Positions 38,909 through 39,954 of a stretch of 64,000 nt of DNA are shown here, one piece after another. The notes under the pieces are model-generated. The model was given only the letters and a program-made list of their open reading frames with translations, did not search any database and was not told the origin of the DNA. A program made the translations under genes and the position numbers. The first letter of the stretch is position 1; every line of letters begins with the position of its first letter. This stretch comes from Anaerolinea sp. GTDB taxonomy: Bacteria; Chloroflexota; Anaerolineae; Anaerolineales; Anaerolineaceae. The stretch covers positions 310,001-374,000 of the forward strand of contig DYEC01000012.1 in the NCBI GenBank assembly GCA_020725865.1, written 5' to 3'.

Positions 38909-38940
38909 ATGTTTTTGATAAGTATCATTATCATAAACAT
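38909..38940 (+). other. dif-like recombination site
   Basis: Two inverted 13-bp arms, ATGTTTTTGATAA (38909-38921) and TTATCATAAACAT (38928-38940), with one mismatch, flank a 6-bp centre GTATCA. Arms ending ATAA/TTAT around a 6-bp centre are the layout of Xer dif sites. It lies 30 bp before the start codon of the tyrosine recombinase. It could be the chromosome-dimer resolution site, an attachment site, or an operator for the same protein. Confidence 0.65.
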
Positions 38941-38945
38941 ATAAT
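38915..38945 (+). promoter_or_regulatory. Possible promoter of the recombinase gene overlapping the dif-like site
   Basis: TTGATA at 38915-38920 lies inside the left arm and TATAAT at 38940-38945 starts at the last base of the right arm, spacer 19 bp. Transcription would start near 38952 with a short leader and no Shine-Dalgarno sequence. Recombinase binding to the arms would cover the promoter. Confidence 0.45.
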
Positions 38946-38970
38946 ACAAAAATTGTGATATTCTTTAAAC

Positions 38971-39954
38971 ATGGCTAATATAACTATTACACGTGTTGTG
39001 CATCATTATTTGGAAACAATTGGTCTGGCGCGTAGTGTTAATACCAAACGCACCTATCGTAATGGTGTTATGCAATTTTTGGAAGTGTTACGGTCAAAAA
39101 ACATTAACCCGGACAAAACCTCCATTAAAGATATATCCGAGGACTCTGTTTCATGGTTCATCTCATCATTGAAAGATTATTCACCATCTACAGAACGGTT
39201 ATACTTGACAGCTGTCATGGGCTTTTTTGAATTTGTTGTCTCGGAAAACTTGTCTGACATTAACCTGCCAAAAATTCGCCTGCTGATCAAGCATAGAGCT
39301 AGAAAACCGGGACAACGGTTACCTCAATTTCCTCAAGATGACATTGATCGCATGCTGGAGTATATTGAAACGTTGAAAACAACCCCTATAGAAACCGACG
39401 AAGAACGATTGCGGAATCTTCGAGATCGCGCTTTTTTGTTAACCCTTGCTGATACTGGGCTGCGAGTTCATGAAGCCTGTAATCTACGTCGTGGTGATTT
39501 AGACTGGAATGAGGGCCATGCACTTATTATAGGAAAAGGGAACCGCCAGGCAGTCGTTCGTTTTTCAAGGAGAGCACAACAAGCTATTAAAGATTATCTT
39601 AACGCCAGGCTTTCTCTTGATGGAGCTTCTGGACGTCCTCTGACTTCTCTTCCTGTTTTTGCTCGGCATGATAAAGGAGCAGGGAAAAGAATTACTCCAA
39701 TCACAACTGCCACGGGACGCAACATCATTAATCGAATTGTGGAAAGTGCTTTAGGTGCTAATGCAGTCGGCAAAATTACTCCCCACTCTCTGCGTCATTA
39801 CTTTGTCACCAGGGTTTTGCGCGTCTCTGGTAACTTGAAGCTTGCTCAGGAGCTGGCTCGACATCGCAATATTTCAGTAACCCAAAGGTATGCACATCTA
39901 TCCGATAACGAACTAGATCGGGGTTATTGGGAAGTGTTTGAAAATAATATCTGA
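38971..39954 (+). CDS. Tyrosine recombinase, XerC/XerD-like
   Basis: Site-specific recombinase of 327 residues. The N-terminal SAM-like core-binding domain (about 5-105) is followed by the catalytic domain with a complete set: Arg165 (TGLRVHE), Lys189 (GKGNRQ), His272-x-x-Arg275 (HSLRHYF), His298 and nucleophile Tyr307 (RYAHL). Its length is close to XerC/D. No second recombinase, phage or transposon gene is adjacent, so a chromosomal Xer role is plausible, supported by the dif-like site directly upstream. An integron- or island-type integrase remains possible. Confidence 0.92.
   Translation: MANITITRVVHHYLETIGLARSVNTKRTYRNGVMQFLEVLRSKNINPDKTSIKDISEDSVSWFISSLKDYSPSTERLYLTAVMGFFEFVVSENLSDINLPKIRLLIKHRARKPGQRLPQFPQDDIDRMLEYIETLKTTPIETDEERLRNLRDRAFLLTLADTGLRVHEACNLRRGDLDWNEGHALIIGKGNRQAVVRFSRRAQQAIKDYLNARLSLDGASGRPLTSLPVFARHDKGAGKRITPITTATGRNIINRIVESALGANAVGKITPHSLRHYFVTRVLRVSGNLKLAQELARHRNISVTQRYAHLSDNELDRGYWEVFENNI

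Follow-up and report, generated by a model that had tools for sequence, protein, structure and literature searches.

Resolution of chromosome dimers by a single recombinase has been described in streptococci and lactococci, epsilonproteobacteria, archaea and Legionellales (PMC5357621; PMC2731167; PMC9765430). In the XerS/difSL system of streptococci and lactococci, XerS has 356 aa and the site is 31 bp long with an 11-bp centre (PMC5357621). The XerH proteins of Helicobacter and Campylobacter are 354–362 aa long, and the arms of difH are AGTTATGAAAA and AAAAGTTTGA (PMC5357621). One recombinase is used in each of these systems, and the site is located at the replication terminus, where it adjoins the gene in XerS/difSL and is usually near the gene in XerH/difH (PMC2731167; PMC5357621). 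The XerL/dif system was found in Legionella, in a lineage without recognisable XerCD, which has one recombinase and a dif near the GC-skew maximum (PMC9765430). Archaeal XerA is likewise a single recombinase, and it has been reported to work independently of FtsK (PMC5357621).

The stretch of Anaerolinea sp. DNA analysed here (64,000 nucleotides, hereafter the window) contains a gene for an Xer-type tyrosine recombinase preceded by a dif-like site (Table 1). The 32-bp site at 38909–38940 is composed of ATGTTTTTGATAA-GTATCA-TTATCATAAACAT (full sequence ATGTTTTTGATAAGTATCATTATCATAAACAT), with 13-bp arms that match in 12 of 13 pairs around a 6-bp centre and with inner ends ATAA and TTAT. Between the site and the start codon of the recombinase gene (ATG at 38971) there are 30 bp. 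Both the form of the site and its place upstream of the gene, as proposed by the initial annotation from the window alone, were thus confirmed. We consider it very probable that site and gene constitute a distinct, order-wide single-recombinase Xer/dif module for chromosome dimer resolution at the terminus, which replaces XerC/XerD. The best reading is that this module is analogous to XerS/difSL and XerH/difH, but is a member of neither and represents a separate lineage.

Table 1. Features of the recombinase gene and the dif-like site (positions in the window)
Feature	Position	Strand	Basis or remark
Left arm of dif-like site, ATGTTTTTGATAA	38909..38921	+	inner GATAA identical in 69/69 relatives' sites (at most 2 mismatches)
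Candidate -35 box TTGATA, inside left arm	38915..38920	+	prediction
6-bp central region GTATCA, predicted strand-exchange region	38922..38927	+	
Right arm, TTATCATAAACAT	38928..38940	+	TTATC tolerates more change than left-arm GATAA
Candidate -10 box TATAAT, 3' edge of site	38940..38945	+	prediction
Xer-type tyrosine recombinase, 327 aa	38971..39954	+	PF00589 (105 bits), PF02899; six catalytic residues
Codon of catalytic Arg I (R165)	39463..39465	+	ortholog comparison
Codon of predicted nucleophile Tyr (Y307)	39889..39891	+	ortholog comparison

The resemblance to XerS and XerH, which had been pointed out from the organisation of the locus, holds for that organisation and not for family membership. 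The module differs from XerS/difSL in the length of the protein and in its 6-bp centre, and the recombinase scored 70.5 bits with the XerS model NF003462, which has a cut-off of 267. It differs from XerH/difH in protein length and in the arm sequences, and the profile comparison with XerH (5jjv) gave 35 bits, below the XerA, XerD and XerC-like entries. The XerC/XerD-dif system is alike in protein size, fold and catalytic residues, as well as in a terminus site with ATAA-6-TTAT inner arms, but it uses two recombinases instead of one, and the site core here is GATAA/TTATC; the scores were 138 bits for XerC (TIGR02224, cut-off 335) and 126 bits for XerD (TIGR02225, cut-off 330). Archaeal XerA shares the use of one recombinase, and its entry 5hxy was the best PDB match by both fold and sequence, but the score with NF040815 was 128 bits versus a cut-off of 220, and the host is archaeal. 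The XerL/dif system, compared here through its published description, shares the single recombinase and the lack of recognisable XerCD, but Legionella belongs to a different phylum. Judged by the curated cut-offs, which it fails, the recombinase belongs to none of the XerC, XerD, XerS and archaeal XerA families. Three features that characterise single-recombinase Xer/dif systems in functional terms were found at this locus, namely a catalytic set without an XerCD pair, a single-copy palindrome at the terminus, and linkage of the site to the gene.

The recombinase has an N-terminal SAM-like domain beside the PF00589 domain. All six catalytic residues that had been recognised at the outset (R165, K189, H272, R275, H298, and Y307) are present, and they are invariant across 22 orthologs. 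The AlphaFold model was moderate (pLDDT 82, pTM 0.60), with residues 292–311, which include H298 and Y307, scoring below 50, so that the fold scores can be taken to confirm the Xer-type fold and nothing more.

No site like that at 38909–38940 appeared in 100 shuffles of the window; across the 431-kb contig there were eight 13-6-13 palindromes in which 12 or more of the arm positions pair, and bare palindromicity was dropped as evidence for dif. The site is exceptional because it is conserved and not because it is palindromic: with at most two mismatches it was found in 69 of 80 named loci versus 1 of 80 shuffled loci, the named loci being those titled Chloroflexi or Chloroflexota, Anaerolineae, Anaerolineales, Anaerolineaceae, or with genera such as Levilinea, Longilinea, Leptolinea and Pelolinea. 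All 69 sites lie upstream of the recombinase gene and in its orientation. The right arm varied (TTACC, TTAAC, and TTATA were seen), while the GATAA of the left arm was constant, and the centres GTATCA and GTATTA each occurred in 20 of 70 sites. The case for a dif-like site rests on this conservation and on the position of the site. The covariation between the arms did not exceed that of shuffles (370 of 5000 were as high), and it was therefore discarded as proof of a homomeric recombinase.

A genome-wide search was performed with the order-type pattern TTNNGATAAGTNNNATTATCNNAA, allowing at most one mismatch and using the reversed pattern as a control. The 3.1-Mb genome to which the window belongs contained one match, and the canonical dif pattern gave only three two-mismatch matches there, which is the chance level; thus, no better dif was found elsewhere in the genome. 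In a sample of 101 genomes of the same family or order, the pattern was matched in 52, as compared to two matches overall for the reversed control. An ortholog of the recombinase, defined by E at or below 1e-60, was present in 67 of these genomes, usually once per genome and at about 48–68% identity, and inspection upstream of 30 orthologs revealed this site in many of them. Of the 67 genomes that have the gene, 51 also have the site, versus 1 of the 34 that lack the gene, and in this single genome (G057) the distance from the site to a contig end is 660 bp. A small number of the matches with one mismatch look like chance (e.g., in G004, G014:C128, G051, and G082). An apparent pair of sites in G034, considered as a sign of mobile elements using the site, was one site in overlapping contig ends. 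This degree of conservation runs counter to the objection, raised in the initial annotation, that the arms might not be conserved in relatives.

Some relatives depart from this form. At locus L199 the site ATGCTTCGCTTAAGTATTATTAAGCGAAGCAT, located about 510 bp before the gene, is a perfect palindrome in which the inner arms are changed from GATAA to CTTAA on both sides; this symmetrical change suggests a shift of specificity. In family f12, three genomes (G143, G177, and G360) have shorter, divergent relatives of the recombinase (306–315 aa, 242–248 bits), and other members of the family mostly carry its normal form.

The position of the site relative to the terminus was analysed using GC skew. 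The window is G000:C10:310001-374000, and the skew was followed along all 431,439 bp of this contig. The cumulative GC skew had its maximum at 341,802 and the site begins at 348,909, a distance of 7.1 kb; in proteobacteria, for comparison, dif and the skew maximum are separated by a median of 7277 bp (PMC2731167). The skew was mostly positive before about 342 kb and negative after, with a single change point at 343.5 kb, and the AT skew also switched sign. A terminus far away, which had been named as an objection, was thus not found. In four relatives the skew was sampled in 20 stretches of 20 kb each; it flipped at the orthologous site in G071, G047 and G029, and within about 50 kb of it in G044, where it became negative in the stretch 30–50 kb before the site. 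In neither G029 nor G071 does dnaA lie opposite the site, though the skew flips at the site in both. Two genomes in which gene and site are far apart were also considered. In G020, with a distance of 68 kb, the skew maximum was 3.6 kb from the site, a weak test because the contig continues for no more than 26 kb beyond the site, and in G049, with a distance of 10 kb, the skew peaked at the gene and not at the site. Polar FtsK-guiding motifs were sought as well and set aside, as the enriched words were G/T-rich and inseparable from GC skew.

The overlap of the site with a predicted promoter bears on the question whether the palindrome is only an operator, bound by a recombinase-like protein or another regulator, and not a recombination site. 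The initial annotation had placed the promoter of the gene in the site and deduced self-regulation. In the window the two boxes are indeed in the left arm and at the edge of the site (Table 1), but the 19-bp spacer between TTGATA and TATAAT makes this candidate promoter poor by spacing, and a promoter scan with 16–18-bp spacers did not report the pair. In relatives, 68 loci offered sufficient sequence for a search for exact TTGACA: 21 had it at -32 to -34 relative to the start of the site and 6 had it at +31, versus 2 over the whole stretch in the shuffled control. These counts describe a pattern and not a probability, as the related genomes are non-independent. In the former class the -10 box is at about -10, which puts the predicted transcription start inside the left arm, and in the latter the -35 box starts on the final base of the site. 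The set offsets of TTGACA indicate that the positions of site and promoter are coupled, which speaks for an operator, and in many relatives a strong sigma-70 promoter is placed at a constant distance such that transcription would start in the site. Hence, autoregulation, as far as promoter predictions can tell, is a plausible and reasonable proposal for the order, and it is unproven for this genome, whose own promoter is weak. The distance between site and gene argues against regulation as the main role of the site. The median distance was 47 bp in the 68 measured loci, and the site was within 150 bp of the gene in 48 of them; as the other 20 loci retain it at distances of 150 bp to 4 kb, autoregulation is unlikely to be its main role. 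In G049, G012 and G020 the gap is 10 to 68 kb, and such distant sites can hardly serve as the operator of the gene. Together with the nearly single-copy occurrence of the site, its location at the GC-skew switch, and the invariance of every catalytic residue, these distances make a function as operator only very unlikely.

A tyrosine recombinase with an adjoining att-like site is typical of integrative elements, and the locus could in principle be an integrase with the attachment site of such an element. The genome has six further Phage_integrase genes, of which four are intact, integrase-like and non-orthologous, one is a dead paralog, and one is a fragment, and the tree weakly grouped the 327-aa recombinase with two of the integrase-like genes (support 82/75, long branches). 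On the other side, the recombinase is found nearly always in one copy per genome, throughout the order and at the terminus, there is no second site in the genome, and the neighbouring ORFs look by inspection like housekeeping genes (PEPCK-like, NusB-like). Scattered recombinase copies with att-flanked islands, another objection named at the outset, were looked into; none of the six other genes is an orthologous active one, and the 327-aa gene is the active one conserved across the order. The origin from a mobile element is thus largely refuted, and we regard it as extremely improbable.

The dead paralog raises the question whether the site is a real dif at which the recombinase needs a partner, either this paralog or another recombinase. 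The paralog is an Xer-like protein of 298 aa (G000:C4:34775-35668 (-), equal to L006:1450-2346 (-)), in which TGIKK replaces TGLR, SFxMCRW replaces HxxRH, and Tyr is missing from the nucleophile position. It is 43–73% identical across most of the order, is convergent with tilS in all 30 loci inspected, and had matches in 96 of the 101 genomes, a few of which are weak matches to other recombinases. This nearly order-wide presence of a protein without catalytic residues would fit a partner, as would the less strict conservation of the right arm than of the left. However, the paralog is also present where the active recombinase and the site are absent (G003, G018, G030, and G031), it is unlinked to the site, and in G099, a genome 87% complete, the recombinase is the sole PF00589 match and no match to the dead paralog was found. 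The need for a partner is hence distinctly unlikely. The view that the paralog is simply what is left of XerC or XerD gained no clear support: the sister-order XerC/XerD genes inspected had no adjoining tilS, and the tree branches are long there. No relevant publication turned up when the literature was searched for inactive Xer paralogs.

The preferred reading, in which one recombinase replaces two, was compared with the distribution of XerC and XerD. No XerD above the curated cut-off was found in any of the 101 relatives, and no XerC-family match at 1e-60 among the ten genomes of the order listed, while a strong XerC-family match was present in 148 of 199 genomes of the class, many of which had two. 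In a tree of 20 proteins from ten sister-order genomes and the recombinases of this order, the sister-order proteins formed two clades of ten, in one of which the scanned members were XerC-best and in the other XerD-best, and the Anaerolineales recombinase was set apart from both, on a long stem, as a third clade. Orthologs were found in 31 of 400 genomes drawn from the phylum; 28 of these belong to the order, and the remaining 3, of which two are weak, come from other parts of the class. The history suggested by an order without XerCD but with an unrelated recombinase is one of loss and replacement.

The 34 relatives that lack the gene also lack the site in all but one case, and some of them are 95–99% complete (G003, G010, G030, and G031), which suggests that the function is dispensable or replaced in those genomes. 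Palindromes linked to the best Xer-like genes were sought in genomes without the module, and nothing consistent was found. G003, G010, G013, G030, G031, G043, G060 and others are of good quality and have neither the recombinase, nor the site, nor an XerD over the cut-off. XerD-like proteins below the curated cut-off (285–306 bits) occur alongside the single recombinase in G063 and G076, and without it in G062, G070 and G083.

The site, the gene with its catalytic residues, their order-wide conservation and co-occurrence, the single copy, the terminus position and the absence of XerCD are established by this analysis, and terminus, copy number and conservation all agree with the initial reading of the locus as a single-recombinase Xer/dif system, which was largely right. 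In the mechanism that we propose, one recombinase would bind both 11–13-bp arms, and a homotetramer would assemble across two sites. Cuts would be made at the borders of arm and centre, and strand exchange over the 6-bp centre would turn chromosome dimers into monomers. Recombination is probably prompted by FtsK; two proteins with FtsK gamma domains are encoded in the genome (G000:C2:227624 and G000:C21:63305). Two such proteins were likewise seen in most relatives examined. Repression of the gene by its own product, once bound to the site, is also probable, or at least plausible, given that the predicted promoter overlaps or adjoins the site. A more elaborate scenario, in which XerC/XerD gave way to an unrelated single recombinase and its linked dif, the coupling of site and promoter tunes the dose of the enzyme, and the dead paralog acts as a non-catalytic partner or regulator, appears unlikely as a whole.

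No paper on such an Anaerolineales Xer/dif module was found in the literature collection searched. If the proposed reading is true, it would be a further case of dimer resolution by a single recombinase, in Chloroflexota and across an order, and it would supply a dif site for a large, mostly uncultured group. The sister orders, which keep XerC/XerD, would then offer a natural experiment on the replacement of two enzymes by one, and the linked site could mark the terminus in draft genomes.
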